35,013 nucleotides of DNA from Prolixibacteraceae bacterium (GTDB lineage: Bacteria > Bacteroidota > Bacteroidia > Bacteroidales > Prolixibacteraceae): the NCBI GenBank assembly GCA_018648265.1, contig JABGRN010000062.1:1-35013 (forward strand). Direction: 5' to 3'. The notes under the pieces are model-generated. The model did no database searches and was not told the origin of the DNA. It saw only the letters and a program-made list of their open reading frames with translations. The position numbers were made by a program, and so were the translations under genes. Positions 1-31,786 of the stretch are shown one piece after another (the stretch's first letter is position 1; each line of letters begins with the position of its first letter).

Positions 1-1
1 T

Positions 2-1477: not shown

Positions 1478-1487
1478 TGTTTAAAAA

Positions 1488-3014: not shown

Positions 3015-3189
3015 TGATATGGATTATTAAAATTTTAAGATTAAGGCGTATTAAAATCTCACCAAAAGATAATGTAGAAATATTCCAGCTTTAGTCTAGA
3101 TGATTATTTCTAAATAAACGTTGATATTTATTGAACTAAAAACACCGAAAAAAAAAACCATGTTTAGTTTAGTTTTTTTATAAAGAATG

Positions 3190-3220
3190 GCTTTCAGGTT
3201 TTCCTGAAAGCTTTCTTTTT
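3190..3220 (+). terminator. Rho-independent terminator after susCD
   Basis: A 9-bp perfect stem (GCTTTCAGG at 3190-3198 and CCTGAAAGC at 3203-3211) closes a TTTT loop and is followed by a T-rich tract (3212-3220). It lies about 175 bases after the susD stop and just before the sulfatase promoter, so it separates susCD from the sulfatase gene. Confidence 0.85.
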
Positions 3221-3222
3221 CG

Positions 3223-3230
3223 TAAATTTG
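3223..3230 (+). promoter_or_regulatory. Candidate Bacteroidota -7 promoter element for the sulfatase gene
   Basis: TAAATTTG is a perfect match to the Bacteroidota -7 consensus TAnnTTTG. It sits three bases after the upstream terminator and about 40 bases before the sulfatase ATG, which would give a short leader of roughly 34 nt. No good -33 TTTG was found at the expected spacing; that region is occupied by the terminator stem. Confidence 0.45.
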
Positions 3231-3270
3231 CTATCACTTACAGTCAATTAAAAACCTAAAAAATAAAATC

Positions 3271-5121: not shown

Positions 5122-5158
5122 CAGGAATTAAAATATGATTGCAATTTTAAATTATAGA

Positions 5159-8757: not shown

Positions 8758-10095
8758 ATGCAAATGATAAATCATGAATATGTAAACCGAATCGTTGATC
8801 TTACCGATCCTTCAAAAAATATTATATACAACATGTCGCACGAAGACGCGATAGAAATTGTCAACTCTGGCGACACAGAAGCAATCCGTAAAATTGACGG
8901 GCAATTTGCTTTAATTGCTGTGGAAGGTAAAAAAATACGAATGGCAAGATCAATTGGCCGTCCGCTACGTTTTTTTATTGCAAAACTAAAAGCCGGCCCG
9001 TGCCTGATTCTTGCTGAACGAATTGATACAATTTTCAATTACCTGAAACAAGAAGGTCTCGACGATCAGTTTCATCCGTCGTACACAAGAATGGCTCCGG
9101 CACATTATATTACAACTATCGAATTATTAGGTTGCCCCGATCCAAGCCCGGTTTACCAACGTTTTTTCGCGCCAATTCGAAACAAACTAAGGCACAGTAC
9201 AATCGAACAAATTGGAAAAAATTATATTGGCACATTATACGAAGAGATAAAAAAATGGCTGAAATTCAGAGCAAAAACGGGGCCAATTGGAGTAACTTTT
9301 TCGGCAGGCATTGACAGTGGTTCTGTATTTTTACTGACTTACCATGCGTTGCGCGAACTTGGGGAAAGCCCATCGAGATTAAAAGCATTTACTTTAAGTG
9401 TTGATGGAAAAGGTGAAGATTTGAAACAAGCCCGTGAATTTCTAAAGGCGCTAGGAATGGAACTTTTTCTTGAACCAATTGAAATTAAAGCAAAAGATTT
9501 GAACTGGAAAAAAACTATTAAAGTTGTTGAAGATTACAAACCTTTAGACATTCAAGCTGCCACAATGAATCTGGCGGTTCTTGAAGGTATCCGTTCCAGA
9601 TACCCCGACTGGAAACATATTATCGATGGTGATGGTGGCGATGAAAATCTTAAAGATTACCCCATTGAAGAAAATCCTGAACTGACCATCCGAAGTGTTT
9701 TAAATAATTTAATGTTGTATCATGAAGGTTGGGGTGTTGGTAAAATGAAACACTCGTTAACTTATTCCGGCGGTTTAAGTCGTGGATACATGCGTACTTA
9801 CACACCTGCCGACATTCTTGGTTTTGATAATTTCAGCCCATATACTTTAGAAAATGTTATTGAAATAGCCGAAGGCATTCCATTTATTAAAATGACAGAT
9901 TGGGACCACGACAAACTTTATGAACTTAAAGGACAAGTGGTTGCAAGTGGCATTAAAACTATTACCGGAATGGAAATGCCGGTTTTTACAAAACGAAGGT
10001 TCCAGCACGGAGTATCTAATATGGATACTTTTAATAAGCATTTCCCTGAAAAAGAGATAGATTACCGGCGGGAATTTCTGGCCATTTATGAGTAA
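8758..10095 (+). CDS. Asparagine-synthetase-like (PP-loop) amidotransferase homolog without glutaminase nucleophile
   Basis: This is a 445-aa cytoplasmic enzyme of the asparagine synthase family, which adenylates a carboxylate and transfers an amine. The synthetase half is clear: the PP-loop SAGIDSG at 182-188 (canonical SGGxDSS) and the second motif DGDGGDEN at 290-297 (canonical GDGxDE). The N-terminal ~130 residues look like a worn class II glutaminase domain (DGQFALIAVEG, then ARSIGRPLRFF, like the usual ARDRxGxKPLYY). The protein begins MQMINHEY, so the Cys2 nucleophile needed to release ammonia from glutamine is absent. It is shorter than AsnB (about 550 or more aa). The same loss occurs in beta-lactam synthetase and lasso-peptide cyclases, so the product is probably an amide or ring made with a non-glutamine amine; the substrate is unknown. 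It overlaps the downstream radical SAM gene by 8 bases, pointing to coupled translation and a shared pathway. Confidence 0.85.
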   Translation: MQMINHEYVNRIVDLTDPSKNIIYNMSHEDAIEIVNSGDTEAIRKIDGQFALIAVEGKKIRMARSIGRPLRFFIAKLKAGPCLILAERIDTIFNYLKQEGLDDQFHPSYTRMAPAHYITTIELLGCPDPSPVYQRFFAPIRNKLRHSTIEQIGKNYIGTLYEEIKKWLKFRAKTGPIGVTFSAGIDSGSVFLLTYHALRELGESPSRLKAFTLSVDGKGEDLKQAREFLKALGMELFLEPIEIKAKDLNWKKTIKVVEDYKPLDIQAATMNLAVLEGIRSRYPDWKHIIDGDGGDENLKDYPIEENPELTIRSVLNNLMLYHEGWGVGKMKHSLTYSGGLSRGYMRTYTPADILGFDNFSPYTLENVIEIAEGIPFIKMTDWDHDKLYELKGQVVASGIKTITGMEMPVFTKRRFQHGVSNMDTFNKHFPEKEIDYRREFLAIYE

Positions 10096-11035
10096 ATTCC
10101 CTGATACCAGATTTGACGATCAGTGGATTATTTCTAAACGTGGAAAAAAAAACAAGATCGATCCCCTAAAACCGTATGGCTATTTTGTTGAAAAAGAACG
10201 TACGGTTTCGGGGAGTATCGAAAATGTATCAACCATTTTATTAACTAATTCCGAGTGTCCTTTCCATTGTTTAATGTGTGATCTTTGGAAAAACACAAGC
10301 GACAAACCTGTTCCTGAAAAATCCGTTGCGGCACAAATTGAATTTGCGCTATCAAAATTACCCGAAACGAAACATCTAAAACTTTATAATAGTGGCAGTT
10401 TTTTCGATAACAGGGCGATACCGAAAAATGACTATAAGAAAATAGCACAGTTGGTAGATCATTTTGAAACCGTTCTTGTTGAAAGCCACCCGTCTTTTAT
10501 TAACGAAAATGTTCTGCATTTTAGCAATCTGATTAAACCCAAATTACTAGTAGCTTTAGGTCTTGAAACTGTACATCCTGAAGTCCTTCTTCGGCTAAAT
10601 AAAAAAATGACTCTTAATGATTTCGAGCGTTCCGTAAAATATCTAACTGAACTTGAAATTTCAACACGGGCTTTTATCCTGCTACGTCCACCTTTTTTGT
10701 TTGAAAAGGAAGGTGTAATCTGGACCAAAAAGTCGATTGATTATGCTTTTAAAATTGGAGTTTCATCTGTTACTATTATTCCTGTACGATCAGGAAACGG
10801 GGCGATGGATCAATTAAAGTTGGAAAAATATTTTGAAGAACCGCGAATAGAATCTCTGGAAAATGTTATTGAATATGGCATTGGATTAAATGCAGGAAAT
10901 GTTTTTGCCGATCTTTGGGATATCGAATATTTTTCAAAATGTGGGAAATGCCTTAGTAAAAGAAAAGAAAGACTAAATCAAATGAACCTGTTCCAGAAAA
11001 TACCAACCAGAGTTTATTGTACATGTTTAATTTAG
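10088..11035 (+). CDS. Radical SAM protein with extra C-terminal cysteine cluster
   Basis: This is a 315-aa cytoplasmic radical SAM enzyme. The [4Fe-4S] motif is CPFHCLMC with Cys57, Cys61 and Cys64 in the classical CX3CX2C spacing, followed by a TIM-barrel-like run with an SGSFFDNRAIP segment (about 100-110) and a conserved-looking GLETVHPEVLLRLNKKM stretch. The SGSFxDxxxIP segment recalls the RaSEA/archaeosine-type radical SAM branch, but the cluster spacing differs, so I do not assign that function. The C-terminus has CGKC (285, 288) and CTC (311, 313), four cysteines that could hold an auxiliary Fe-S cluster or zinc. Translation is coupled to the Asn-synthetase-like gene by an 8-base overlap. 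The pair could tailor a peptide, tRNA base or small molecule. No RiPP recognition domain, leader peptidase or clear precursor was seen. Confidence 0.88.
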   Translation: MSKFPDTRFDDQWIISKRGKKNKIDPLKPYGYFVEKERTVSGSIENVSTILLTNSECPFHCLMCDLWKNTSDKPVPEKSVAAQIEFALSKLPETKHLKLYNSGSFFDNRAIPKNDYKKIAQLVDHFETVLVESHPSFINENVLHFSNLIKPKLLVALGLETVHPEVLLRLNKKMTLNDFERSVKYLTELEISTRAFILLRPPFLFEKEGVIWTKKSIDYAFKIGVSSVTIIPVRSGNGAMDQLKLEKYFEEPRIESLENVIEYGIGLNAGNVFADLWDIEYFSKCGKCLSKRKERLNQMNLFQKIPTRVYCTCLI

Positions 11036-11411: not shown

Positions 11412-13130
11412 ATGATAAAGAAATTAAGGAATACGTTAAAGAAAGCCGATATTTATTTTGTGTTGATTTTTTTTATTTTGGTCGTTACCATAATTGGCTG
11501 TCAGTCAAATAACAAATCTTCTAAAACTGTTACTGAACAGAATGAACTAAAACTTCCACCAGCAAACGACGACTATTTTCAGGAGATCATAAAATATTCG
11601 GGAATAGATTTTACCCATACTATTGGAGACGATCATTTGAGCAATCTTGTAGAATCGGTTGGTGGTGGAGCAGTTTTTTTCGATTACGACCAGGATGGTT
11701 TTTTAGACCTCTATTTAAGCAATGGAAATTATACCGAGGGATTAAGTATGAATGAAGATCACCCGGCAGTAAAAACCTCAGAAAACCGCTTATTTCGTAA
11801 TCTTGGAAACGGTACTTTTGAAGATCAGACAAAAAAAGCACGCGTTGGCGACCGCGGATATGGGATGGGAATGACAGTTGGCGATTTCGATAACGATGGC
11901 TACCCCGATATTTATGTGAGTAATCACGGAACAAATGTCTTGTTTCATAACAATGGAAACGGAACTTTTTCGAATATCACAAAAAAGGCCGGTGTAGGAG
12001 GAAATGAGTGCAGCGTTGGTGCCGTTTGGTTGGATTACGACAACGACAGTTTCCTTGATTTATACGTTGGCAACTACATCGAATTCGATGCTCAATATAA
12101 TTATTACTATGCACCCGATGGATTTCCCGGACCAATGGCTTACGATGGCCAGCCCGACATTTTATACCACAACAACGGCGACGGAACTTTTACGGATGTA
12201 ACAAAGGAGATGGGCGTATTTAACAGCGATGGCAGGGCAATGGGAGTAGGTGCTGCAGATTACGACAACGATGGTTTTGTTGACATTTTTGTATCAAACG
12301 ACCACATGATTAATTACCTGTATCACAACAATCAGGGCAAAGGATTTGAAGATCGGGGAATTATGTCGGGAGTTGCATTCAATCAAATTGGTGAGGCAAC
12401 TATTAGTATGTCGGTCGATTTTGCCGATTACAACAACGATGGTTTGGTTGACCTTTTTGTTTCTGATGATGTTTATTGTTCGTTGTATAAAAACGAAGGA
12501 AATGGTGTTTTTAGCGAAATGTCGTACAATGCGGGAATAGCCGTGGCTTGTGGACAATTTGTTGGATGGGCATCGTCATTTCTGGATTACGACAACGACG
12601 CGGACTTGGACTTATTCAAGGTAAATGGAGAGTTGAAACATTTATACGGACAGGAAGACCAATTATTTGAGAATGCAGGAAACGGAAATTTTATTGATAT
12701 CTCAACCGACCGGGGCGAATACTTTCAGCAGGAATTAGTTGGCCGAGGAGCCAGTTTTGGGGATTTTGATAACGATGGAGATTTTGATGCATATATTGTA
12801 AATCTTAACGACAAAGGTGCTTTGCTTCGTAATAACAAAGGAAATCTGAATAACTGGATTGCTTTGCAACTTATCGGGGAAACCAGCAACCGAGACGGAA
12901 TTGGCGCAAGAGTAACTGTGGTTTCGGGTGGCGTTCAACAATTCGCCCAAAAGAAAAGTTCAAGTGGATATCTTTCTCAAAACGATCCAAGGATGTATTT
13001 TGGCCTCGCCGATAATAAAATGGTTGAAAGCATTGAAATTATTTGGCCATCGGGAAAAATTCAAAAAATTGAGAATATTGATGCAAGGCAATTTCTCACA
13101 GTAAAAGAATCTGAAATCGTATCTCCATGA
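11412..13130 (+). CDS. CRTAC1-family FG-GAP/VCBS + ASPIC/UnbV lipoprotein, first gene of the redox operon
   Basis: This is a 572-aa exported protein of the CRTAC1 type: one FG-GAP/VCBS propeller and one C-terminal ASPIC/UnbV domain. The ATG at 11412 gives MIKKLRNTLKKADIYF followed by a hydrophobic segment ending IIGCQSN with lipid Cys30. After a FTHTIGDDHLSNLVESVGGG segment come calcium loops DYDQDGFLD, DFDNDGYPD, DYDNDSFLD, DYDNDGFVD, DYNNDGLVD, DYDNDADLD and DFDNDGDFD. The ASPIC domain (about 495-567) shows IGARVTVVSGG, SGYLSQNDPRMYFGLAD and IEIIWPSGK. It is half the length of the ~1120-aa members elsewhere in the window and lacks their second repeat block. Its stop overlaps the next start (ATGA), so it is translationally coupled to a heme protein gene. 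Such proteins are often found beside cytochromes and SusCD systems, but the molecular role is unknown. Confidence 0.9.
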   Translation: MIKKLRNTLKKADIYFVLIFFILVVTIIGCQSNNKSSKTVTEQNELKLPPANDDYFQEIIKYSGIDFTHTIGDDHLSNLVESVGGGAVFFDYDQDGFLDLYLSNGNYTEGLSMNEDHPAVKTSENRLFRNLGNGTFEDQTKKARVGDRGYGMGMTVGDFDNDGYPDIYVSNHGTNVLFHNNGNGTFSNITKKAGVGGNECSVGAVWLDYDNDSFLDLYVGNYIEFDAQYNYYYAPDGFPGPMAYDGQPDILYHNNGDGTFTDVTKEMGVFNSDGRAMGVGAADYDNDGFVDIFVSNDHMINYLYHNNQGKGFEDRGIMSGVAFNQIGEATISMSVDFADYNNDGLVDLFVSDDVYCSLYKNEGNGVFSEMSYNAGIAVACGQFVGWASSFLDYDNDADLDLFKVNGELKHLYGQEDQLFENAGNGNFIDISTDRGEYFQQELVGRGASFGDFDNDGDFDAYIVNLNDKGALLRNNKGNLNNWIALQLIGETSNRDGIGARVTVVSGGVQQFAQKKSSSGYLSQNDPRMYFGLADNKMVESIEIIWPSGKIQKIENIDARQFLTVKESEIVSP

Positions 13131-14569
13131 AGTCAAAAAATATTTTTTGGAGTGTTGGTGTTATTCTTACCATTGTGTTGGCAGGCCTGTCTTTGAATTT
13201 ATCTAAAAACCAGTCGCTCGAAGGCATGGTTATTTTTACCCGCATTCCAATTGACAATTTCGAAATTCAAAAGAACAATTTAACTTCTAATTTTATCGGG
13301 GCACAAATTGTAGCAATCGACCCAAATAATCCGGAAGGTTCGGAAATTATATTAACAACTGAATTTTTCTCGGCCTGCTCTCCTAATATTTCGTACGATG
13401 CAAAACGCATTCTATTTACAGCGCAGCAAAACGAAAACGATAACTGGCAAATATGGGAAATGGATTTGGAGACAAAAACAAGTAAAAAGATTACCGACTT
13501 TAAAGAATCATGTTTTGGCCCAAATTATCTTCCCTTCAACCGTTTGGTATTTACTAAACAAATGCCTGAATCGGGCATCGGTAAAATCCATGCCTTGCAC
13601 ACAATGAATTTGGATGGGTCAAATTTTAGTCAGATTACATTTCAGCCACATTTCGATTATACTGCAACAGTACTAAAAGATGGTCGTTTGTTGATGCTAA
13701 GCAAACAATTATTTCCTGAATCGGGCGAGATGGTGTACATGGCAATGCGCCCAAACGGAACAAAAGCTGAACTTTTTTATAAAGGGGAAATCGGCAGTAT
13801 TTTGAATACCCAAAGTTACGAAACAGAAGATGGTCTGGTTTACTTTATCGAAAGTGAAAATAAAGCAAAGAATGGTGGAGATATAATTTCTATTCATCAA
13901 AACAGGCCATTATTTACCAAAGAAAATATTACATCAGAAATTACCGGAAGTTTTTATTCTGTGCTGCCAACACAATCAGGCGAAATGTTTGTTTCGTACC
14001 AAGCCTCGGAATCCGAACCTTCCGTACTATTTCGTTTTTCGGTAAAAGATAAATCATTGGGAGAATTAATTTATAGTAATCCTGAATATTTTATTGTGGA
14101 ACCTCTTTTTGTTGAAGCCTTTACGAGACCACGAGATTTGCCCGATGATGTGGATCCGGAAATCTCAACCGGTTTATTATTGTGTCAGGATATAAATGTT
14201 GTTGCACTCCAACCTGAAACAAGTTCGGAAACTGTAGAAGCAACTAAAGTTGAATTGCTGGGTATCGATAAAAGTTTGGGTATTGTTCCGGTTGAAGAAG
14301 ATGGGTCTGTTTATCTGAAAGTAGTTGCAGATACACCGGTTCGTTTTCAGACTTTAGATGAAAATGACAATGTTGTAAACGGGCCTTCGGGATGGATGTG
14401 GGTTCGCCCGTTTGAACGTCGGGGATGCGTTGGTTGTCATGAAGATCCGGAATTAACACCTGATAATTTTGTGCCTTTTGCGGTTAAAAAAGAACCGGTT
14501 TCAATACCTGTTGAAAATTCTCCAGAAACAGAACAAAGTTCCACCAACGAAAGAACTGAACAGAAATGA
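13127..14569 (+). CDS. HzsA-related propeller protein with one c-type heme site
   Basis: This is a 480-aa exported protein resembling the 'HzsA-related' family, named for similarity to the alpha subunit of hydrazine synthase but found widely outside anammox bacteria. An N-terminal membrane anchor/signal (IFWSVGVILTIVLAGLSL) precedes a TolB/WD40-like propeller (repeats such as ILFTAQQNENDNWQIWEMDL and LHTMNLDGSNFSQITF). The diagnostic C-terminal module reads GIVPVEEDGSVYLKVVADTP, then GWMWVRPFERRGCVGCHED, with the heme motif Cys434-Cys437-His438. There is only one CXXCH, and the residue four after its His is Glu442, not the Tyr that I recall serving as proximal ligand in the catalytic heme of hydrazine synthase. 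The enzyme activity should therefore not be transferred. Starts and stops overlap both neighbours as ATGA. It is probably a periplasmic electron carrier or docking subunit. Confidence 0.82.
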   Translation: MKSKNIFWSVGVILTIVLAGLSLNLSKNQSLEGMVIFTRIPIDNFEIQKNNLTSNFIGAQIVAIDPNNPEGSEIILTTEFFSACSPNISYDAKRILFTAQQNENDNWQIWEMDLETKTSKKITDFKESCFGPNYLPFNRLVFTKQMPESGIGKIHALHTMNLDGSNFSQITFQPHFDYTATVLKDGRLLMLSKQLFPESGEMVYMAMRPNGTKAELFYKGEIGSILNTQSYETEDGLVYFIESENKAKNGGDIISIHQNRPLFTKENITSEITGSFYSVLPTQSGEMFVSYQASESEPSVLFRFSVKDKSLGELIYSNPEYFIVEPLFVEAFTRPRDLPDDVDPEISTGLLLCQDINVVALQPETSSETVEATKVELLGIDKSLGIVPVEEDGSVYLKVVADTPVRFQTLDENDNVVNGPSGWMWVRPFERRGCVGCHEDPELTPDNFVPFAVKKEPVSIPVENSPETEQSSTNERTEQK

Positions 14570-16602
14570 AACGAAATAAAAAAATATTTTTAGTCTTTGG
14601 TGGACTGGCAATAATTAGCCTGTTTTTTATACAATTTCATAAATGGTCGGTGCATCATGTTAATTATATTACTGCTGTTGACGATCATCCTTTAAATTGT
14701 ATGTCTTGCCATTTGTACATTCAAAAAGACGGGATAGCTGCGAAATTAATAAACGAAGATTATTTGTCTCCATATAATTTGTCGCTTGCTCCCGATGGCA
14801 AAAAATTATACGTGATTGCACAAGATGCGAATGCACTTTTAATTGTTGACACGAAAACAAACAAAGTCATTGACAAAATAGAAGTTGGTGAGAAACCTCA
14901 CAGTGTTGTTATAAAAAATGACGGGGAAACTGCTTTTGTTAGTAACCAGTGGGCAGATAATTTGTATGAAATCGATCTTACCTCATTAAAAGTAATTGAT
15001 ACCCTGAAAACCGGTAGTGGCCCGGCTGAAATTATTTTTAGTCCCGATGAAAAATTTCTATATGTTGTTGACTCTTATTCATCGGAAGTTTCAATTTTCA
15101 ACCTGCAAACTAAAACGGAGATTAAACGTTTGATGGCCGGGAACAATCCGGTTGCGGCGGTATTTTCCCCCGATGGAAGTCAGGCAATCGTAACCAGCAG
15201 AAGAACACTGCCAATTCCTTACGGAACTCCACCAATGACAGAACTTACCGTAATTGATGCGGCAAGCCAAAGAGTGAAAGAGCGCAAAATATTTGAGAAT
15301 GCATATTTAATGGAGAATGCTGCATTTACGCCATCAGGCGATTTGGCAATTTCTACGCTCATCCGTCCTAAAAACCTGATTCCTTCTGTTCAGGTTGAAC
15401 GTGGTTGGATGATGACTCACGGAATTGGTATTATTGAATCGGGCAACGAAGGCAGGATGATTCAACTGTTAACCGACGAACCAAATTCATATTATTCTGA
15501 TCCTTTTGATATAGTTATTTCGCCTGACGGACAAAAAGCTTTTATCAGTCATTCAGGAGTAGATATAATTACAGTAATTGATCTTAATGAAATTCGGGCA
15601 CTTCTTGCTGAATCGACTCAGGAAAAACTGGATTATTATTCAAATCACCTGGGAATAAGCGCTCGATATGTTATTAAACGAATTCCAACAGGCGCAAATC
15701 CAAAAGGGTTGGTGCTTTCACCCGATGGAAAATATCTTTATGTGGCCGAGAGGTTAGAAGACAAAATTGCTGTTATTAATACAGAAACCCTCGAAACCAT
15801 TAATTCCATAGATCTTAACGGGCCTTCGAGAATAACCGTTGCTCGTCAGGGACGCAGGCTTTTTAATAACTCGGGACATACTTTTCAAAACCAATACGGT
15901 TGTTATACTTGCCATCCCGACTCGCACGAAGATGGCCTCGTTTATAATATGGCGGGTGCAGATATGGGCAGAAACCTTGCCAACACACAAACTTTGCGCG
16001 ATATTGGTGACATCCCCCCGTATAAATGGAACGGGAAAAACTCAAGTATTTACAAACAGGATGGCATGCGTTTCTCAACTATTTTAACAAGAACTGAATC
16101 ATTTAATTACGACGATTTGGATGCACTCGTAGCCTATATTGTTACCGGAATTAAAAACCCTCCCAACTTGAGATATAATCCAACAGGCGAATTAACGGCA
16201 GCTCAAAAAAGAGGTAAAAAGGTTTTTTACCGGACACATACAAACTGTGGAAAAGAAATTCCGGTCGAGAATCAATGTGCAACTTGTCATCCACCACCCT
16301 ATTTTACAAATATGCAAATGGCCGATGTTGGAACGTTGTCAGACACAGACGATCCGATGTTATTTGATGCGCCTCAGTTAAATAATATATACGAATCGGC
16401 ACCCTATTTACACGACGGAAGTGCAGCCACATTGGAGGAATTATGGACAAAATTTAACGACGATGATGAACATGGCGTTGCCAACGATATGTTGAAAGAT
16501 CAACTAAATGATTTGGTTGAATACCTTAAATCTATTAGAGACGCTAAGTATTATAAAGATGACGTTGAAGAATATAAAGCTGATATTAACCAGGAAAATT
16601 AA
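14566..16602 (+). CDS. Tri-heme cytochrome c: N-terminal heme, YVTN beta-propeller, MauG/CCP-like C-terminal domain
   Basis: This is a 678-aa exported multidomain cytochrome. A membrane anchor (IFLVFGGLAIISLFFI) is followed closely by heme site 1, CMSCH (45-49). Residues ~60-435 form a YVTN/NHL-type beta-propeller (repeats such as LYVIAQDANALLIVDTKTNK and FSPDEKFLYVVDSYSSEVSI). Heme site 2 is CYTCH (446-450) and heme site 3 is CATCH (571-575), both in a cytochrome c peroxidase/MauG-like domain with the typical ending FDAPQLNNIYESAPYLHDGS. The MauG-like part suggests oxidation of an organic substrate or protein with peroxide or an electron acceptor; the propeller may position the partner. It is coupled to the HzsA-related gene by ATGA and followed after four bases by the Reg_prop gene. 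The substrate is unknown. Similar propeller-cytochrome fusions are often annotated as surface-layer or cytochrome D1-like proteins. Confidence 0.88.
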   Translation: MKRNKKIFLVFGGLAIISLFFIQFHKWSVHHVNYITAVDDHPLNCMSCHLYIQKDGIAAKLINEDYLSPYNLSLAPDGKKLYVIAQDANALLIVDTKTNKVIDKIEVGEKPHSVVIKNDGETAFVSNQWADNLYEIDLTSLKVIDTLKTGSGPAEIIFSPDEKFLYVVDSYSSEVSIFNLQTKTEIKRLMAGNNPVAAVFSPDGSQAIVTSRRTLPIPYGTPPMTELTVIDAASQRVKERKIFENAYLMENAAFTPSGDLAISTLIRPKNLIPSVQVERGWMMTHGIGIIESGNEGRMIQLLTDEPNSYYSDPFDIVISPDGQKAFISHSGVDIITVIDLNEIRALLAESTQEKLDYYSNHLGISARYVIKRIPTGANPKGLVLSPDGKYLYVAERLEDKIAVINTETLETINSIDLNGPSRITVARQGRRLFNNSGHTFQNQYGCYTCHPDSHEDGLVYNMAGADMGRNLANTQTLRDIGDIPPYKWNGKNSSIYKQDGMRFSTILTRTESFNYDDLDALVAYIVTGIKNPPNLRYNPTGELTAAQKRGKKVFYRTHTNCGKEIPVENQCATCHPPPYFTNMQMADVGTLSDTDDPMLFDAPQLNNIYESAPYLHDGSAATLEELWTKFNDDDEHGVANDMLKDQLNDLVEYLKSIRDAKYYKDDVEEYKADINQEN

Positions 16603-16606
16603 CAAG

Positions 16607-17818
16607 ATGAAAAATAATAATCGGTTCTTTCAAAAAAATATTAAAGTGCTGTCTTTAATATTACTAAGTGTTTTCTTATCCGGATTTTCTATTTCAAAAC
16701 AGGATAAATCTTTTCAAAATGATTTAGAAGATAATCAGGCAAAACCTGTAGAAATTTCTTCCCGGGTTTCTCCGGAAACCGGATCTGACATTAAAGATGA
16801 AGCCCAACAAATGCCTGTTTATGGGAATTGGGAAACATTTACTGTAAAAGATGGGTTGCCAGCCGATAAAGCATATTGTGTTCGTATTGATGGCGATCGG
16901 GTTTTGGTGGGAACAAGTGCTGGACTTGCTGTTTATGAAAACGAAACATGGAAAACTTATACTGCAGAAGACGGACTTGCTCACAATGGTGTTCTTTCAA
17001 TCGATGTAAGTGAACTTACGGGAGATGTTTGGCTGGGTACACTTGGAGGGTTAACACGTTGGTCGGCAGGAAGATTTGAAACTTTTACGCAATTTAACAG
17101 CGGATTGGCCAACGATGTAATTTACACGGTTATTTGCGATGGAAAAGATGTTTGGGTAGCCACCGGCGGAGGAGCAGGAAGCTACGATACTTATACAAGA
17201 GAATGGGGCATTTACACAGAAAGAAATGCACCCATGCACGAGCCATGGACATACGGTGTTTGTGCCGGTGGTGGTAAAATATTTATTGCAGCCTGGGGAG
17301 GTGGTGTGATAGAATATACAAAAGAAACCAAACAATTCAGGGATTATGTTGATCCGGATGGAGAGATGGAAATTGACCTTTTCCCCGATGATGGAGTAAT
17401 CCACGATATTACAACCGGTGTAACTTTTGCAGATGATATTTTATGGGTAGCAACTTATTTTGGATTAAGCCGTTACGATGGTACCCGCTGGAAAGGATAC
17501 TTAGACCATGATTCCGGTCTGGTCAGTAATTTCATAAATTTTCTGAAAGCAGATGGTCCGGTGGTTTGGCTTTGCACCGACCTTGGATTAAGCAGTTTTA
17601 ATGGAGAAACCTGGGTTACGTATCGGAAAAATGAAAACAACAAGAAGGGAAAAATTATTATTACTGAAGGTGAAAATACTAAAGAAATATCTTCGACCAC
17701 ATCAATATCTCACGAATTTGTGATTGGAGTAGATACTCAGGACGATGTAGTCTGGATTGCAACTTCAAAAGGTGTTAGCCGGGGAGAAATTTTAAAAGAT
17801 TTAACTGCGGGATTGTGA
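16607..17818 (+). CDS. Secreted Reg_prop (two-component regulator propeller) beta-propeller protein
   Basis: This is a 403-aa exported propeller made of Reg_prop-type blades, the repeats normally found in the periplasmic sensor part of Bacteroidota hybrid two-component systems. Here they stand alone with no kinase, transmembrane or Y_Y_Y domain. Blades are visible as WETFTVKDGLPADKAYCV, WKTYTAEDGLAHNGVLSI, VWLGTLGGLTRWSAGRFETF, LWVATYFGLSRYDGTRWKGY and VWLCTDLGLSSFNGETWVTY. The start at 16607 (MKNNNRFFQKN, then ISLILLSV-like hydrophobic core) follows the cytochrome stop by four bases; an in-frame ATG at 16508 lies inside the cytochrome gene and is rejected. The product is probably a periplasmic or surface ligand-binding subunit. 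In this operon it may be the binding or scaffold partner of the heme proteins. Confidence 0.85.
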   Translation: MKNNNRFFQKNIKVLSLILLSVFLSGFSISKQDKSFQNDLEDNQAKPVEISSRVSPETGSDIKDEAQQMPVYGNWETFTVKDGLPADKAYCVRIDGDRVLVGTSAGLAVYENETWKTYTAEDGLAHNGVLSIDVSELTGDVWLGTLGGLTRWSAGRFETFTQFNSGLANDVIYTVICDGKDVWVATGGGAGSYDTYTREWGIYTERNAPMHEPWTYGVCAGGGKIFIAAWGGGVIEYTKETKQFRDYVDPDGEMEIDLFPDDGVIHDITTGVTFADDILWVATYFGLSRYDGTRWKGYLDHDSGLVSNFINFLKADGPVVWLCTDLGLSSFNGETWVTYRKNENNKKGKIIITEGENTKEISSTTSISHEFVIGVDTQDDVVWIATSKGVSRGEILKDLTAGL

Positions 17819-17841
17819 TTTTAACCAATAATACAAATGTC

Positions 17842-19173
17842 ATGAAAAATCAAGATCAAAAGATAAAATTGCGCGTATTAGTATTAACCATTCTTACCAT
17901 GTTCTTTTTATTTCCGGTTTCGGATTTAAACGGACAAGATAAGAAACTAAACTATGGCAATACAACCGATGAACTGGTTCCCTACGGCCGCTTTCAAAAA
18001 GCCTACAAGAATTTTTTTGATGACGTTCAACCGTTCACCGGAGCGGGTAGAGAAAAAGTTCCTCCCACTGATCTTACTGAGGTAAGAATTGGCTTTTTGG
18101 GACCATTAGAAGGATCGATTTTAACCCCGCTGGGTATTCAAATGTTACAAGGCGCATCATTTGCTATTGAAGAGGCCAACAATAAAGGAGGGTACAACGG
18201 TATCCCTTTCAAATTAATGCCGCACAACGATGTCGGGTTATGGGGTGCCGCTGCCAACGAAGTAGTAAAAATGAACGATGAAAAAGTTTGGGCGTTTTTG
18301 GGTTCAATAGATGATATAAATACTCATGTTGCTTTGCGGGTAGCTCTTAAATTAGAAATTCCAATGGTTAACTCCGGCGATCCTGATCCTACACTTACTG
18401 AAACCAGAATTCCATGGATGATCCGCAACATTGCCGATGACAGACAAAGTAGTTATGCTTTGGTAAACCATATTTATCGCGAAAAAAAACATTCTCGTAT
18501 TGCAGTATTGCGTGCCAATAATCGTTATGGCCGGGTTGGGATAATGGAATTCAGAGATGCTGCATTGCGATATGGATTTCCACTGGTTTTGGAAATACGT
18601 TATAACGACGGTGAGATAGACTTTGCCACGCAAATTGAACGCATGATAAAATCCTCACCTGATGCTGTGGTTCTGTGGGGAAATGCCAAAGAAACTGCGC
18701 TCATAATAAACCAAATGCGCCAAATGGGAATGGAGCAACCAGTTTACGGATCCGACAGACTCATGTCGAAAGAGTTATTGGAAATTGCCGGTGAAAATGC
18801 TGAAGGTCTGGTTACAACATGCCAGTATAATCCAACTCTGGATGAACCCAATTTGGTAGCATTCAACAAAAATTATAACGAAAGATATGGGATGGAACCG
18901 GATGTGTTTGCAGCACATGCTTACGATGGAATGAACCTTATTATTGAAGCCATTCACAAAGCAGGTCTCAACCGCGCACTTATTCGTGATTTACTAACCG
19001 ACCATAAAACATTTCAGGGATATCAAGGGATTACGGGCGAGCTGATTTTAGATCCGTCGTGGAATGATATCGGTTCGATCTGGATGACTGAAGTACGAGA
19101 TGGGAAATTTGATTTTTTCCCCACTCCGCCACTAATTTCAGATGAGCAGGAAAATAAAAAAAGCACTCCTTAA
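17842..19173 (+). CDS. LivJ-like periplasmic binding protein (Peripla_BP_6), orphan
   Basis: This is a 443-aa type I periplasmic solute-binding protein of the branched-chain-amino-acid/amide family. The signal peptide (VLVLTILTMFFLFPVSDLNG) is followed by an ~50-residue spacer and the two-lobed binding fold: EVRIGFLGPLEGS (start of lobe 1), GIQMLQGASFAIEEANNKGG, AFLGSIDDINTHVALRVA, RIAVLRANNRYGRVGIMEF (lobe 2) and DVFAAHAYDGMNLIIEAIHK. I prefer the ATG at 17842; a GTG at 17815 overlaps the previous stop but adds nine residues before the signal. No permease or ATPase gene is nearby, so this protein probably delivers or senses a ligand for the cytochrome/propeller proteins rather than feeding an ABC importer. 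Binding proteins of this family also accompany PQQ-dependent alcohol dehydrogenase systems, a parallel and not an identification. Confidence 0.87.
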   Translation: MKNQDQKIKLRVLVLTILTMFFLFPVSDLNGQDKKLNYGNTTDELVPYGRFQKAYKNFFDDVQPFTGAGREKVPPTDLTEVRIGFLGPLEGSILTPLGIQMLQGASFAIEEANNKGGYNGIPFKLMPHNDVGLWGAAANEVVKMNDEKVWAFLGSIDDINTHVALRVALKLEIPMVNSGDPDPTLTETRIPWMIRNIADDRQSSYALVNHIYREKKHSRIAVLRANNRYGRVGIMEFRDAALRYGFPLVLEIRYNDGEIDFATQIERMIKSSPDAVVLWGNAKETALIINQMRQMGMEQPVYGSDRLMSKELLEIAGENAEGLVTTCQYNPTLDEPNLVAFNKNYNERYGMEPDVFAAHAYDGMNLIIEAIHKAGLNRALIRDLLTDHKTFQGYQGITGELILDPSWNDIGSIWMTEVRDGKFDFFPTPPLISDEQENKKSTP

Positions 19174-19228
19174 AAACAAAAATATTTGATCGAAAATTAA
19201 ATTCCAGGTTTGAGTTTAAATATGTACC

Positions 19229-20386
19229 ATGTTTCAATTAAGATACAAATCTTTTCTATGCTCAATAATTTTACTTTTAACAGGATTTGTTACAGTTGAA
19301 GCACAAACATTTGAAAGTTTGAGTTCACATCAAACAACCAACTCAAACAAAACAGAACAACCGGAAACTATAAAAATTGGACTTCTTATTCCTTCAATAG
19401 AATCGCAATCGGCAAAACATGGTGCTGAATTAGCCATTAAAATATCTAACGAAAAAGGTGGTTATAAAGATGTACCATTTCAACTAATTACCCGATCAAC
19501 TGCAGGTCCTTGGGGAGCGGGTTCAAAAGAGTCGGTAAGTTTAGTGTACGATGATGAAGTTTTAGCAATAATGGGATCTTTGGATGGTCGCAACGCACAT
19601 CTTGCCGAACAGGTGGCTGCAAAAACAAAAATCATTTTTTTATCAACACGGGCGAGCGACATGACTTTATCGCAGGCTTTTGTTCCCTGGTATTTTCGAA
19701 CCGTACCAAACGATAAACAGCAGGCAATTTCATTAATTCAGGAGATTTACAAAAATGGGGAATCCGAAAATGTGACAATAATTTCCACAGAAGATTACGA
19801 TTCAAAGTATGCTGTTCGCACTTTTTTAAAAGTAGCGGATTCGATGAAAATAGCTAAACCCAAACACTTTTTGTTAAAATCATCTGGCAATAATATTAAC
19901 GAAATTCTTGATGAAATTGAAAAATCGGATGCTGGAAAAATTGTTTTATTTGGAGATTATCAATTTGCTTCGAAAATAATTCCTGCCTTAAAGGAACGCA
20001 ATCTGGCTCAAACTATTTTTGGATCGCTGTCAACTATCAACAATCTACAAGCATCGGGTTTAAACTGGGAAATCTTTGAAGATGTGATTTTAATATCTTC
20101 CGGCCATTATTTTACAGAAACCGGGTTAGCTTTTCAAAAGGAATTTGAAAAGACCTTTGGTTATCTACCGGGCTTTTTTTCTGCCTTTGCCTACGATGGA
20201 ATAAATATAATTATTGATGTAATTAAAAGGGCCGGCCCCGACCGTGACAAAATTATTGATGCATTCGCGGAGACAAAATACAAAAGTGGTGTTACAGGTA
20301 ACATTCAATTTGATAAAAATGGAAACCGGGTTGGCAATCCGGGTTTAATGATTATAAAAAACGGATTTCCGGTTGTCTTAAAATAG
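19229..20386 (+). CDS. Second LivJ-like periplasmic binding protein (Peripla_BP_6), paralog of the preceding gene
   Basis: This is a 385-aa exported binding protein. The signal peptide (FLCSIILLLTGFVTVEAQ) ends at a likely signal peptidase I site, so it is soluble periplasmic. The fold matches the previous gene: IKIGLLIPSIESQSAKHGAE, ISNEKGGYKDVPFQLITRS, AIMGSLDGRNAHLAEQVAAK and FSAFAYDGINIIIDVIKRAG. It is shorter than its neighbour, lacking most of the N-terminal spacer, and clearly diverged in sequence, so it probably binds a related but distinct ligand or forms a heteropair. It lies 55 bases after the first paralog and closes the tight gene run; 193 bases follow before the TPR/FG-GAP gene, with a candidate promoter in between. 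Confidence 0.86.
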   Translation: MFQLRYKSFLCSIILLLTGFVTVEAQTFESLSSHQTTNSNKTEQPETIKIGLLIPSIESQSAKHGAELAIKISNEKGGYKDVPFQLITRSTAGPWGAGSKESVSLVYDDEVLAIMGSLDGRNAHLAEQVAAKTKIIFLSTRASDMTLSQAFVPWYFRTVPNDKQQAISLIQEIYKNGESENVTIISTEDYDSKYAVRTFLKVADSMKIAKPKHFLLKSSGNNINEILDEIEKSDAGKIVLFGDYQFASKIIPALKERNLAQTIFGSLSTINNLQASGLNWEIFEDVILISSGHYFTETGLAFQKEFEKTFGYLPGFFSAFAYDGINIIIDVIKRAGPDRDKIIDAFAETKYKSGVTGNIQFDKNGNRVGNPGLMIIKNGFPVVLK

Positions 20387-20579: not shown

Positions 20580-23500
20580 ATGAAATATAAATTTATCGGA
20601 TTATTGATACTACTAGCAATTGCGTTTTCTTTCAATAACTGCAAACAACTGAAAAAGAAAACCCCGGCTTCACCCGAAGAATTGAATACAACAAAAACAC
20701 TCGGATTGGCTTATCTTGAAGAAAACCAAATAGAAGATGCAGAGGCTCAGTTCCTGAAATTGGTTGATCTTGATCCGGATGAAGTTTTGGGTTACGCAAA
20801 CCTCGGAATAGTTTATTTAAGAATGGGTAAATATCAGGAGGCGGAAGAATGGCTGAATGAAGCCATTAAAATGGATCCAAATGATCCGGATATCAGGTTG
20901 ATTTTAGCAAAAGTTTATGAGATGGCCAATAAATCTGAAAAAGCCATAAATGAACTTGAAAAAGGAATCAGTTTTTCTCCCGGACACGTTAAATCATTGT
21001 ACAGCCTCACTGAATTATATTCGTCGTTTACCGATGAAGAATCTATCAATAAACTTCAGAAATATACTGAAGAACTGATTGAAAACGCACCCGGCAATAT
21101 TGTGCCTCGTTTAAATTTAATCGAAATATTAATTCGTAAAAAACTAAGCGACGAAGCTTTGGAACAGTTAGAAAAACTGCAAAAAATTTTCCCGCAATTC
21201 CCAATGGAAGCAATCGAATATCACGACAAAACAATTGCTGCTTTGCAAACCGGGAATAACGAAGAAGCTACCGTTTCGTTTATGGTTTTCCATAATTATC
21301 TGAAAGTAACATCTCCATTTCAGGCTGGAATTCTCGAATTAAAAGGCCCCGGTGGTTCTTTAATTGGATCTCCTGTAATTACATTCGACCAACAACGGGG
21401 GGAGGTTCAAACCGGCGATTGGCAAACCTTGCTGGACGCAATAAAATTTACCGATATTACCACAACTGCCGGACTTGATTTTCAACAAAACCCGGAAACA
21501 AGTCCTCAATCAAATACCAGCAATAATAATATGATCCCACTTTCAGCAAGTGATTACGACGGAGATGGTGACATCGACCTCTCTTTCGGGGTTTTTGATT
21601 CCCAAACCAAAAATTACAAGTTTCATTTATTTAATAATGAATGGGGAAAATTCAGGGATGTCACCGAAGAAACCGGTATTCGCCATCAGGGAAAAGATAT
21701 TTCTTCGAAATTTGCGGATTACGATAACGACGGTTTTCCCGACCTATATATTGTTAGAAATGGTTTTAACATTTTATATAAAAACAATGGCGACGGGACT
21801 TTTACCGATGTTACAAAAAAAGCTAAAGTTGGTGATGAAAACATTGGAAATAAATCTCTTTTTTTTGATTTTGACCACGACGGGGATCTCGATTTGTATG
21901 TAACCATGCCGGGAGCAAACCAGCTTTATCGAAATAATTCTGACGGCACATTTCTTGAGCAGGCAAAAGAATCAAATACATCTGGCTTGGATATTTTCAG
22001 CCCGGATGCTGAATTTGGAGATTTTGACGATGATGGGGACATTGATCTTTTTGTGGTAAACTATGATGCGCCCAACATTTTATATTCCAATCAACGGCAG
22101 GGAATTTTCAAGGATATTACAGAAACAAGTGGATTGGGAAACGAGATCGGCTCGAGTTCAGTAACTGTGGGCGATTATAATAACGATGGATTTTTAGATT
22201 TGTTTATTACATCGTCGGTGGCAGGAAAAAGCAAATTGTATCGAAATCAGGGAGATGGTAGTTTCAAAATTGATGAAACATCAAACGATTTGGCGCAGAC
22301 TTTACAAAATGTTCAGGTAAAAGATGCTACTTTTTTGGATTTCGACAACGACGGATATCTCGATCTTTTTGTTGTTGGCCAATCGAATACCGAAAATGGC
22401 AATGGAGTTTTTCTATATCACAACGATAAAAGAGGGACATATTTTGTAGTAGAAAACATTTTGCCCGAAGATTTAAAATCGGGAAAAGAGATTTTAACTT
22501 TCGACTACAACGAAGACGGGGATCTGGATGTTGTTATAACAGGGTTGAATGGAAATATTCGTCTCTTGAGAAATGATGGTGGTAGTAACAATCATTTTGT
22601 GAAAATGAAACTTGTTGGCCTGAGAACAGGAAGTGGTAAAAATAATTACTACGGTATTGGAGCCAAAGTTGAAATACGATCAGGAAATTTATATCAGTCG
22701 AAAGTAGTTACCGAACCCAATATACTATTCGGGTTGGGGCCCCGGGCGAAGGCTGATGTAATACGTATTTTATGGACAAACGGTGTTCCTCAAAATATGT
22801 TCTTCCCGGGAACCGATCAAAGTCTTATCGAGGAACAATCCCTGAAAGGATCGTGTCCTTTTCTTTATACCTGGGACGGAGAAAAATATGTTTTTGTCAA
22901 GGACATTACCTGGCGGAGCGCACTTGGAATGCCGCTGGGAATTATGGGAGAAGATAAAATGACTAAATATGCAAGTTCAGCACCATCTGTCGATTACATA
23001 AAAATTCCAGGTGAATTATTAAAACCTCAAAATGGAAAATATAAAATCCAGTTAACCGATGAATTATGGGAAACAATCTATTCCGACAAAATCCAGTTGA
23101 TTGCACTCGATCATCCCGATTCTGTTATCGTTTTTGTAGATGAACGGTTTATGCCGTCTCCTGAACCTGGATACAAACTTTTTCAGGTTGGCGAAAAAAA
23201 CTTTCCTGTTTCAGCCACCAACAAACGGGGCGACAACCTTCTCTCGTTTATCACACAAAAAGATGACAATTATATTTCAACATTAAAACCCACCGAATTC
23301 CAGGGGATTACAGAATTAAGCGAACTGGTATTAGATTTGGGGGAAATTAATACCAATGAAAACTTAAGCCTTTTTCTGAATGGCTGGCTCTTTCCGTCCG
23401 ATGCCAGTATAAATGCATCTATTGCTCAATCGGGCAAAATTAAATTGGTTTCACCTTACATTCAGGCCATAAATAAAAAAGGAGAATGGGAAACCGTCGT

Positions 23501-24173
23501 TGATAATCTCAGTTTCCCGATGGGAAAAGACAAAACTCTTGTCGTTGATCTATCCGGTAAAATTCTTGCTTCGGATGCACGAATTCGGATACGCACAAAT
23601 ATGGAAATCTATTGGGACTATATTTTTTATTCGAACGAAAATTCATTAGCACCAATTCATTCAAATACATTAAATCCAATCTCAGCTGATTTACATTACA
23701 GGGGTTTCTCCCGAACATTCCGAAAAGGTGGCAGATATGGACCACACTGGTTCGATTATCAAAGTGTTTCTACCGAGCCGAAATGGAGAGATCTTGTGGG
23801 AAATTACACCCGTTATGGAGACGTGTTGCCTCTGCTTTTAGAGGCAGACGATAAATACGTAGTAAAAAATGCTGGTGATGAAACTACTTTAGAATTTGAT
23901 GCTGAAAGTTTGCCAAAATTACCAAAAGGCTGGAAACGGGATTTTTTAATCCATAGTGTGGGTTGGGTGAAAGATGGAGACATGAACACTGCAACCGGGC
24001 AAACGGTGCTGCCATTACCTTTTCATGCCATGAGCAAATATCCATACGGATCGGATGAACAATATCCAAACGACATCGAGCATCAGAATTATTTAAAAGA
24101 GTACAACACCCGGAAAGTTACCACCAAGGATTTTCGTATGGCAATAAGTAATGAAAACGGGAATTTGAAATAG
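20580..24173 (+). CDS. TPR + FG-GAP/VCBS + ASPIC/UnbV lipoprotein with large C-terminal domain
   Basis: This is a 1197-aa exported protein with a distinct domain order. A lipoprotein-like signal (FIGLLILLAIAFSFNNCKQ, Cys21; the residue before Cys is Asn, so the lipobox is not ideal) is followed by TPR repeats at about 35-150 (LGLAYLEENQIEDAEAQFLK and ANLGIVYLRMGKYQEAEEWL). The FG-GAP block starts near 325 with DYDGDGDID and continues through DYDNDGFPD, DFDHDGDLD, DFDDDGDID, DYNNDGFLD, DFDNDGYLD and DYNEDGDLD. A degenerate ASPIC/UnbV segment (about 691-765: IGAKVEIRSG, ILFGLGPRA, IRILWTNG) leads into GSCPFLYTWDGEKYVFVKD. The last ~430 residues match no domain I can name but look folded and are rich in Trp, Tyr and Asp. 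The TPR region could dock the other subunits. It ends 20 bases from the convergent gene. Confidence 0.87.
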   Translation: MKYKFIGLLILLAIAFSFNNCKQLKKKTPASPEELNTTKTLGLAYLEENQIEDAEAQFLKLVDLDPDEVLGYANLGIVYLRMGKYQEAEEWLNEAIKMDPNDPDIRLILAKVYEMANKSEKAINELEKGISFSPGHVKSLYSLTELYSSFTDEESINKLQKYTEELIENAPGNIVPRLNLIEILIRKKLSDEALEQLEKLQKIFPQFPMEAIEYHDKTIAALQTGNNEEATVSFMVFHNYLKVTSPFQAGILELKGPGGSLIGSPVITFDQQRGEVQTGDWQTLLDAIKFTDITTTAGLDFQQNPETSPQSNTSNNNMIPLSASDYDGDGDIDLSFGVFDSQTKNYKFHLFNNEWGKFRDVTEETGIRHQGKDISSKFADYDNDGFPDLYIVRNGFNILYKNNGDGTFTDVTKKAKVGDENIGNKSLFFDFDHDGDLDLYVTMPGANQLYRNNSDGTFLEQAKESNTSGLDIFSPDAEFGDFDDDGDIDLFVVNYDAPNILYSNQRQGIFKDITETSGLGNEIGSSSVTVGDYNNDGFLDLFITSSVAGKSKLYRNQGDGSFKIDETSNDLAQTLQNVQVKDATFLDFDNDGYLDLFVVGQSNTENGNGVFLYHNDKRGTYFVVENILPEDLKSGKEILTFDYNEDGDLDVVITGLNGNIRLLRNDGGSNNHFVKMKLVGLRTGSGKNNYYGIGAKVEIRSGNLYQSKVVTEPNILFGLGPRAKADVIRILWTNGVPQNMFFPGTDQSLIEEQSLKGSCPFLYTWDGEKYVFVKDITWRSALGMPLGIMGEDKMTKYASSAPSVDYIKIPGELLKPQNGKYKIQLTDELWETIYSDKIQLIALDHPDSVIVFVDERFMPSPEPGYKLFQVGEKNFPVSATNKRGDNLLSFITQKDDNYISTLKPTEFQGITELSELVLDLGEINTNENLSLFLNGWLFPSDASINASIAQSGKIKLVSPYIQAINKKGEWETVVDNLSFPMGKDKTLVVDLSGKILASDARIRIRTNMEIYWDYIFYSNENSLAPIHSNTLNPISADLHYRGFSRTFRKGGRYGPHWFDYQSVSTEPKWRDLVGNYTRYGDVLPLLLEADDKYVVKNAGDETTLEFDAESLPKLPKGWKRDFLIHSVGWVKDGDMNTATGQTVLPLPFHAMSKYPYGSDEQYPNDIEHQNYLKEYNTRKVTTKDFRMAISNENGNLK

Positions 24174-27553: not shown

Positions 27554-27623
27554 AAATATAAATCAAGATGACAATATTGTTTAATATGTAATTTACACTT
27601 TAGTTTCGTTTCTATTCTCGCCG

Positions 27624-31608: not shown

Positions 31609-31716
31609 CTTTATAAAGTTATATTTTTTTCAATCATTTTTTTTTAAATTCTCTAACAAACCCGGTTATATTTTATCAATCATTTTATTCTAAATAGTTA
31701 CCAAATCTTTAGCTCA

Positions 31717-31730
31717 ATTTTACGTAAAAT
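31717..31730. repeat. 14-nt perfect palindrome in the minus-strand intergenic gap
   Basis: ATTTTACGTAAAAT is perfectly self-complementary and lies 109 bases upstream of the 213-aa lipoprotein start, in a 178-base AT-rich gap. It could be a regulator half-site pair or a weak hairpin, or chance in AT-rich DNA. No second copy was noticed. No perfect -7 element was found for the minus strand in this gap. Confidence 0.25.
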
Positions 31731-31786
31731 ATATTTTCTGACTATTTTATATAGAATTTTTTGAAGCTCGAATATTTAATTTTCCA

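Follow-up and report, generated by a model that had tools for sequence, protein, structure and literature searches.

What does a tightly packed run of genes for exported heme, propeller and binding proteins do in a bacterium of the Prolixibacteraceae (Bacteroidota)? The run occupies positions 11412-20386 of the window, i.e., the whole stretch of DNA analysed, which is the complete contig JABGRN010000062.1 (C62; 35,013 nucleotides) of assembly GCA_018648265.1 (5.58 Mb, 164 contigs, completeness 100). Judged by homology, its second and third genes are a pair of the hydrazine synthase (HZS) superfamily, consisting of an alpha subunit and a fused beta-gamma subunit. The conserved block in which they lie is larger than first reported, with a TPR/CRTAC1 protein downstream and an AsnB-like ligase and a radical S-adenosylmethionine enzyme (rSAM) upstream. 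It is tentatively suggested from sequence that the block may encode an exported heme oxidoreductase with two active sites, linked to a small molecule of its own that would be produced or modified in the cytoplasm. The genes of the block, with lengths in amino acids (aa), are the following.

8758..10095, + strand: AsnB-like ATP-dependent amide ligase, 445 aa (PF00733, E 3.8e-10; PP-loop; predicted fold)
10088..11035, + strand: rSAM, 315 aa, overlapping the AsnB-like gene (CX3CX2C; predicted fold; TIGR01210 below cut-off)
11412..13130, + strand: gene 1, CRTAC1-family FG-GAP/ASPIC lipoprotein (PF13517, 2.2e-49; PF07593, ASPIC/UnbV, 1.6e-21; lipobox by eye)
13127..14569, + strand: gene 2, HzsA-like alpha (PF18582, 4.2e-20; 5c2v_A, 3.7e-15; one heme site, no heme-alpha-II site)
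14566..16602, + strand: gene 3, HzsB-HzsC fusion homologue, beta-gamma (NF052342, 8.6e-72; 5c2v_B, 1.1e-49; 5c2v_C, 3.2e-20)
16607..17818, + strand: gene 4, stand-alone Reg_prop propeller (RegP), putatively exported (PF07494, 21.0 bits against a cut-off of 20.4)
17842..19173, + strand: gene 5, LivJ/Peripla_BP_6 binding protein 1 (SBP1; PF13458, 3.4e-48; nearest solved structures 4gnr and 3td9)
19229..20386, + strand: gene 6, LivJ/Peripla_BP_6 binding protein 2 (SBP2; PF13458, 1.9e-30; 3hut, 1.1e-12)
20580..24173, + strand: TPR, FG-GAP and ASPIC-like protein (TPR_CRTAC), 1197 aa (TPR and FG-GAP families; ASPIC, 22.9 bits against a cut-off of 23.4)

A preliminary description of this DNA had reported six codirectional, packed genes joined by ATGA overlaps and a 4-base gap, with four CXXCH sites in total, and all of this was reproduced by scripts that took in open reading frames (ORFs) from 90 aa up. 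The overlaps lie at 13127 (genes 1 and 2) and 14566 (genes 2 and 3), and 4 bases separate the TAA of gene 3 (16600-16602) from the ATG of gene 4 at 16607. Gene 2 has a single CXXCH site, at residue 434, and gene 3 has three, at residues 45, 446 and 571; shuffled versions of the two proteins contain on average 0.0004 and 0.0014 sites (5000 shuffles). Inspection of the N-termini by eye revealed a lipobox, IIGC, in gene 1 and hydrophobic segments in the others, which points to putative export. The CRTAC1 lipoprotein, the Reg_prop propeller and the two LivJ-like proteins of the preliminary description are borne out by matches to PF13517/PF07593, PF07494 and PF13458, respectively. SBP1 probably starts at the ATG at 17842, a GTG at 17815 being open too, and the closest solved structures of both binding proteins are binders of branched-chain amino acids. 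TPR_CRTAC is the seventh member of the conserved run, and the AsnB-like/rSAM pair (8758-11035) lies directly upstream of the six-gene operon.

Gene 2 carries an HZS_alpha domain (72.5 bits against a cut-off of 26.6) and shares three stretches of similarity with the alpha chain of the HZS structure 5c2v; the earlier label 'HzsA-related' agrees with its matches to PF18582 and 5c2v_A. Gene 3 is composed of an N-terminal part with an extra heme site, a beta propeller and a two-heme gamma part. It matches 5c2v_B at residues 62-406 and 5c2v_C at residues 419-590 and 598-656, while its families are a YVTN-type propeller and CCP_MauG (PF03150, 34.1 bits against a cut-off of 25.6). Given the matches to the 5c2v chains and NF052342, all three HZS subunits are represented in the window. 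The preliminary description had called gene 3 a tri-heme propeller/MauG-like cytochrome; the three CXXCH sites, the propeller, the CCP_MauG domain and a tryptophan discussed below support that label, which missed the identity as an HzsB-HzsC fusion. The NCBIfam cut-offs for HZS are missed by both genes (alpha 96.3 against 800 bits, beta-gamma fusion 242.3 against 1250 bits), and gene 3 also stays below those of the tryptophan tryptophylquinone (TTQ) MauG equivalog (21.8 against 443.85 bits) and of the MbnH family (32.1 against 362.85 bits).

The conservation of the gene set was followed by a scan of one genome per species through alignment to gene 3, seeded by two short peptide patterns and thus favouring close relatives. 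From 133 pattern-matched stretches, 100 were confirmed and the best 80 used, namely 78 Bacteroidota loci, mostly from metagenome-assembled genomes, and two from Terriglobia. Seven of these 80 loci are rows identical to genomes of the set of relatives introduced below and are therefore not independent of that set. Partners were counted on the same strand, within set distances, and only in loci with enough sequence in view. Upstream of beta-gamma, CRTAC1 was found in 64 of 66 evaluable loci and alpha in 70 of 74. Downstream, RegP (72/72) and SBP1 (61/61) were always present, and SBP2 (51/52) and the TPR/CRTAC1 protein (46/49) nearly always. The misses fall on L048, L052, L059, L109, L119 and L120; in L119, CRTAC1 stands between alpha and beta-gamma. 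This grouping of genes is far beyond chance. Seven named isolates carry the heme gene and its neighbours (four Maribacter, one Lutibacter citreus and two Lutimonas), so that naming the whole block gives a testable handle.

The preliminary description had made its exported multi-protein redox and binding unit depend on co-occurrence of the genes elsewhere. All six partners occur together in 43 of 47 evaluable loci, and the set is conserved in two phyla, Bacteroidota and Acidobacteriota, which supports such a unit well. Its further proposal, that the unit captures a substrate and passes electrons to the hemes, is possible; bearing on this, the conserved block showed neither an electron acceptor nor a transporter or catabolic enzyme. 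The earlier reading therefore stands as regards a redox and binding unit, while the AsnB-like, rSAM, DAHP synthase and Rid-like partners and the TPR/CRTAC1 protein had gone unnoticed.

The residues of the gamma part bear on the kind of heme chemistry. HZS residues are numbered by adding 39 to the 5c2v chain number, anchored on gamma-His106 (PMC12758564); the same offset also places a chain histidine at gamma-His332, which is a ligand of heme gamma-II in HZS (PMC12607021). In the alignment to 5c2v, gamma-His144 is replaced by Trp488, gamma-Cys165 by Asp499 and gamma-Asp168 by Phe503, and gamma-His332 aligns with His636 of the window, the kept gamma-II histidine. Trp488, Asp499, Phe503 and also Gln498 are each present in 78/78 Bacteroidota loci and Glu511 in 77/78; a tryptophan is the residue of MauG and cytochrome c peroxidase (CCP) at the gamma-His144 position (PMC12758564). 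His636 is found in 75 of the 78 loci and His575, of the last CXXCH, in 76, all remaining rows being gaps, and bis-His ligation of heme gamma-II is predicted. The beta-gamma protein has three CXXCH sites in 72 Bacteroidota rows and two in six. One CXXCH is present in each of the 67 alpha ORFs read from the 78 loci. No heme alpha-II site exists in the window alpha, and at the counterpart of alpha-Tyr591 (His+4) no tyrosine occurs in 66 scored Bacteroidota alphas, the window having glutamate. Because gamma-His144, Cys165 and Asp168 are replaced and the alpha His+4 tyrosine is missing, it is very unlikely, as far as the residues tell, that the window pair makes hydrazine. PF13447 (hydroxylamine oxidoreductase/hydrazine dehydrogenase) has no match in the window genome and is equally silent in all 14 control genomes.

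The same genome contains a second, divergent HZS-like pair on contig C118 (L007, 8158-12382), with an alpha of 793 aa and a beta-gamma of 594 aa, each with two CXXCH sites. Identity to the window pair is 24-25% for beta-gamma and 30-36%, in pieces, for alpha, and no CRTAC1 or binding-protein gene was seen adjoining it.

Beyond the Bacteroidota, a sample of 396 genomes was drawn from the phylum to which the Terriglobia locus belongs, here called Acidobacteriota, and a beta-gamma homologue was found at E 1e-30 in 21 of them. Twenty stretches from 18 of those genomes were taken; 19 were used (L209 was dropped as divergent) and joined with L119 and L120 to give 21 loci. CRTAC1 is present in 18 of these, alpha in 17, RegP in 19 and SBP1 in 15; SBP2 and TPR/CRTAC1 were not counted, as their queries cross-match SBP1 and CRTAC1. 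Gene order varies among the loci and differs from that of the Bacteroidota, yet the genes stay together, which argues for selection to remain clustered. The gamma-I tryptophan is found in 20 of the 21 loci, the remaining one having an X. The number of CXXCH sites in the 21 beta-gamma homologues (L119, L120, L189-L211) is 2, 3, 6 or 10 in 8, 5, 3 and 5 cases, respectively. Such variation would be expected if the core is constant and an electron wire is attached to it, and the N-terminal heme wire appears to have grown modularly in Acidobacteriota.

A cysteine at the gamma-Cys165 position occurs in both loci from another Bacteroidota class and in 16 of the 21 Acidobacteriota loci, and thus also exists outside the anammox bacteria; a cysteine of this type is reported for clade I homologues by Hagglund et al. 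(PMC12758564). The evolution of HZS is concerned here, as non-anammox relatives have a cysteine at the third-thioether position and the gamma-II histidine ligands. L166 and L167 (G228 and G477) combine an alpha homologue without CXXCH as read (2/2) with a beta-gamma that has three CXXCH sites and the cysteine.

The AsnB-like and rSAM genes adjoin the block in many relatives. The PP-loop of the ligase, S182-x-G184-x-D186-S187, is invariant in 19/19 aligned rows; its AlphaFold model is moderate (pLDDT 74.8), with asparagine, beta-lactam and carbapenam synthetases as nearest structures. In the rSAM, the CX3CX2C motif at 57/61/64 is invariant in 22/22 rows, and the model (pLDDT 92.7) has radical SAM enzymes as nearest folds; the protein stays under the TIGR01210 cut-off (109.6 against 212.15 bits). 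Among 101 genomes, i.e., the window genome and 100 relatives, the rSAM occurs in 10 and a close heme pair (57-100% identity) in 11, and all 10 lie within the 11 (Fisher p 5.7e-13, kinship uncorrected). Twelve of 14 genomes asked for the rSAM were positive. Ten of those genomes were read further and contain a second CRTAC1 gene, AsnB and rSAM in succession; past the rSAM, no partner is common to most of these 10 loci, except a recurrent large FG-GAP protein. In G067 some 37 kb separate AsnB-rSAM from the heme genes, and in G074 it is found on a different contig next to a second TPR/CRTAC1 gene, so the link between rSAM and heme pair is not one of adjacency alone. G001 was rejected as a further non-adjacent case, since its two contigs both break off within the block and could belong to a single locus; its rSAM frame is also interrupted by a stop codon.

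An exclusive linkage of AsnB-rSAM to the heme pair holds in the 101 near genomes and fails in the wider phylum. There, rSAM matches besides the own gene are 38-51% identical, with one at 29%; 19 such loci (L241-L259) were read, and AsnB (54-60% identical) accompanies the rSAM (39-50%) in 19/19. A flavin-enzyme family lies within 6.5 kb in 17 of them and, by the one member tested, is halogenase-like (PF04820). AsnB-rSAM is consequently treated as a facultative partner; it forms an independent small-molecule module, which Bacteroidia have coupled with the heme block. No description of the module formed by AsnB, rSAM and the flavin halogenase-like enzyme (L241-L259) was found in the literature.

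Two further biosynthetic genes lie inside the block of relatives. In 46 of 68 loci, the gap between RegP and SBP1 measures about 610-830 bases and encodes a Rid-family protein of roughly 190 aa (one ORF is cut short), and the gap between SBP1 and SBP2 is at least 868 bases in 40 of 56 loci; the 17 ORFs listed from these latter gaps are DAHP synthases. Counted by similarity, Rid-like proteins are present in 46 and DAHP synthases in 43 of the 78 Bacteroidota loci, and each in 10 of the 21 Acidobacteriota loci, with one Rid-like match at 33% identity. The one DAHP synthase tested passes the curated cut-offs (455.4 against 335 bits; TIGR01361, 400 against 267.75 bits). The one Rid-like protein tested exceeds the cut-off of PF01042 and stays under that of TIGR00004 (48.6 against 106.25 bits). 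At the position of the catalytic arginine of RidA, 44 of 45 Rid-like proteins have serine or alanine, one being unscored; the RidA arginine is missing. An identity as chorismatase was considered for the Rid-like protein and dropped, the match being weak (24.8 bits against a cut-off of 325).

In the proposed function, the alpha/beta-gamma pair would be an exported heme oxidoreductase with two active sites. Heme gamma-I, in a peroxidase-type pocket formed in Bacteroidota by Trp488, Gln498 and Glu511, would activate a small oxidant or substrate, and the bis-His heme gamma-II together with the extra N-terminal heme or hemes would conduct electrons. As has been proposed for HZS, an intermediate could then reach heme alpha-I through the beta loop. 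Anchoring and organisation of the assembly at the membrane may fall to the CRTAC1 and RegP propellers, while SBP1 and SBP2, which have no permease here, might hold a ligand for the enzyme or for sensing. In bacteria that have DAHP synthase and the Rid-like protein, this ligand would derive from the shikimate pathway, and where AsnB and rSAM occur, it would be amidated and radical-modified; its role could be that of a substrate, a cofactor or a redox mediator. The least secure point of this scheme is that enzymes of the block itself produce the ligand. A bolder version seems rather doubtful: a new extracytoplasmic redox system in which a complex of the HZS superfamily matures or uses its own diffusible molecule, with LivJ-type carriers and a new cofactor or mediator, and which is ancestral to anammox HZS. 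If true, the job of the HZS-like complex would be the ancestral role from which anammox hydrazine synthase was recruited.

Several observations weigh against the proposed link to a dedicated small molecule. G029 and G106, the two negatives among the 14 genomes asked, have the heme pair without the rSAM. G029, the one heme-pair genome of the 11 without rSAM, also lacks AsnB and is possibly a case of decay; genes that look transposase-like by eye lie between its beta-gamma and RegP (L040, 11421-12682). Across the phylum, the rSAM occurs in 25 of 395 genomes, 21 without and 4 with the heme pair (G456, with a 28% identical paralogue-like match, is not counted as a carrier). An rSAM without heme pair, often beside a flavin halogenase-like gene, means that AsnB-rSAM can serve something else. 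Neither of the two Terriglobia genomes tested contains AsnB, and none of the 21 Acidobacteriota loci has AsnB/rSAM, so there is no biosynthetic set common to all. Nor is the heme gamma-I pocket fixed outside the Bacteroidota, as Gln498 is found in 16 and Glu511 in 5 of the 21 Acidobacteriota loci. The window genome itself has no Rid-like match and no module-type DAHP synthase, with only 37% and 33% identical sequences of DAHP-synthase fold elsewhere; both genes are therefore dispensable there. On the beta-gamma tree (FastTree only, with a long-branch warning), the neighbours of the window lineage mostly have both genes, L043 lacking the Rid-like one, which makes a loss in the window lineage likely. 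On the same tree, Rid-like protein and DAHP synthase flip in presence often (17 and 13 changes). The two may be spare or protective copies.

Use of these two genes as damage-resistant or detoxifying spares would suit a catabolic role, in which a compound from the environment is captured by the binding proteins and propellers and oxidised for energy by the heme pair. DAHP synthase is oxidant-sensitive. Binding proteins without a permease, the sulfatase and the SusD-like gene (by eye) upstream in the window and the variable heme number also fit such a role. As noted, the block has no conserved electron acceptor, transporter or catabolic enzyme, and the linkage to AsnB/rSAM would be left unexplained, so that catabolic capture is considered unlikely. 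A protein-modifying oxidase is another candidate: a MauG- or MbnH-like beta-gamma would oxidise a residue of a partner, such as CRTAC1, RegP or a binding protein, and AsnB/rSAM would help to make that partner or a peptide. The tryptophan at the MauG/CCP position, which is kept in both phyla, and the CCP_MauG domain over its cut-off speak for it, as do a PDB match to 6e1c ('Di-heme enzyme') and the MbnH-family model among the NCBIfam matches. In MauG, the ligand of the low-spin heme is a tyrosine, whereas the low-spin heme here has the HZS-type His636; the MauG and MbnH scores are far below their cut-offs, and the substrate-binding proteins and DAHP synthase would have no explanation. A small peptide as the modified partner is conceivable, as the ORFs covered were those from 90 aa up. 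This oxidase, too, is therefore regarded as a doubtful reading.

The CCP-like pocket residues in Bacteroidota would equally suit a periplasmic scavenger of peroxide or nitric oxide (NO) with merely co-regulated neighbours. Such an enzyme has no need for alpha, two binding proteins, several CRTAC1-type proteins or a set of biosynthetic genes; most of these stay clustered in two phyla, and the scavenger appears improbable. Least credible is a true hydrazine synthase, or another enzyme forming N-N bonds, outside the anammox bacteria. All subunits are homologous, the gamma-II histidine ligand is kept, a beta-gamma fusion is reported for Scalindua too (PMC10732223), and homologues from Phycisphaerae led Suarez et al. 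2023 to hypothesise novel anammox bacteria. Against these points stand the tryptophan, aspartate and phenylalanine in place of gamma-His144, Cys165 and Asp168, the alpha His+4 tyrosine count of 0/66, the missing heme alpha-II site and the rejection of hydrazine synthesis by Hagglund et al. for their own homologues (PMC12758564).

The proposed two-site heme oxidoreductase with its small molecule can be set beside several known systems. Clade III HZS homologues were published without a function by Hagglund et al. 2025 (PMC12758564). As described there, they share with the window an FG-GAP/CRTAC1 gene before alpha, alpha before the fused beta-gamma, two ABC substrate-binding proteins downstream, one extra beta-gamma heme motif and an alpha without heme alpha-II. 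The window arrangement thus matches clade III in gene order and heme motifs. Sections 7 and 8 of that paper do not mention a Reg_prop propeller or TPR/CRTAC1 protein, and the window has both. Linkage to DAHP synthase, Rid-like protein, AsnB or rSAM was not found in the main texts of PMC12758564 and PMC10732223; nor was the biosynthetic linkage found among the matches listed for the wider literature, a scope with most subscription journals outside it. New here is the linkage to TPR/CRTAC1, AsnB-like protein, rSAM, DAHP synthase and Rid-like protein, while the clade III core cluster is known. As far as their main texts go, neither PMC12758564 nor PMC10732223 shows the function of non-anammox HZS relatives.

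The anammox enzyme (HzsABC, 5c2v) has the same three recognisable subunits and the gamma-II histidine corresponding to His636. The window differs in the replaced gamma-His144, Cys165 and Asp168, in a single alpha heme site and in the position of the alpha gene, which comes first, and it adds CRTAC1, RegP and the binding proteins. Di-heme peroxidases, MauG and MbnH resemble gene 3 in two C-terminal heme sites, Trp488 and a PF03150 match over the cut-off; the window has in addition a fused propeller, an extra heme site and an alpha partner. The low-spin ligand of these enzymes is Met or Tyr, and the window has His instead. Gene sets associated with pyrroloquinoline quinone (PQQ)-dependent alcohol dehydrogenase also contain a YVTN propeller and LivJ-type binding proteins, a parallel drawn in the preliminary description. 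It was abandoned, as the partners are missing, with no quinoprotein, PQQ enzyme or ABC transporter gene seen in the block, and gene 3 is under the cut-off of the PQQ-associated propeller family (111.3 against 287.3 bits). The trio of AsnB, rSAM and flavin halogenase-like enzyme in other Bacteroidota shares AsnB and rSAM homologues with the window; its flavin gene was not seen beside a window-type block, and most trio carriers are without the heme pair.

Two other identities were considered for the region and set aside. PADLOC gave no match to a defence system for nine proteins. A plasmid-borne element is not indicated either, there being no close DNA match and only three plasmid records with 24-26% identical proteins.

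Upstream, positions 1-4842 contain the end of a SusC-like gene, a SusD-like gene (by eye) and a sulfatase (SGSH_C), i.e., a polysaccharide-utilisation-type locus near the block, and a further large FG-GAP/ASPIC protein is encoded at 5135-8512 on the + strand. On the minus strand, 24194-34963 holds three large FG-GAP-type proteins (1058-1119 aa) in a row and a 213-aa ORF, the family test covering 24194-27553. Large FG-GAP proteins recur beside the block in some relatives.

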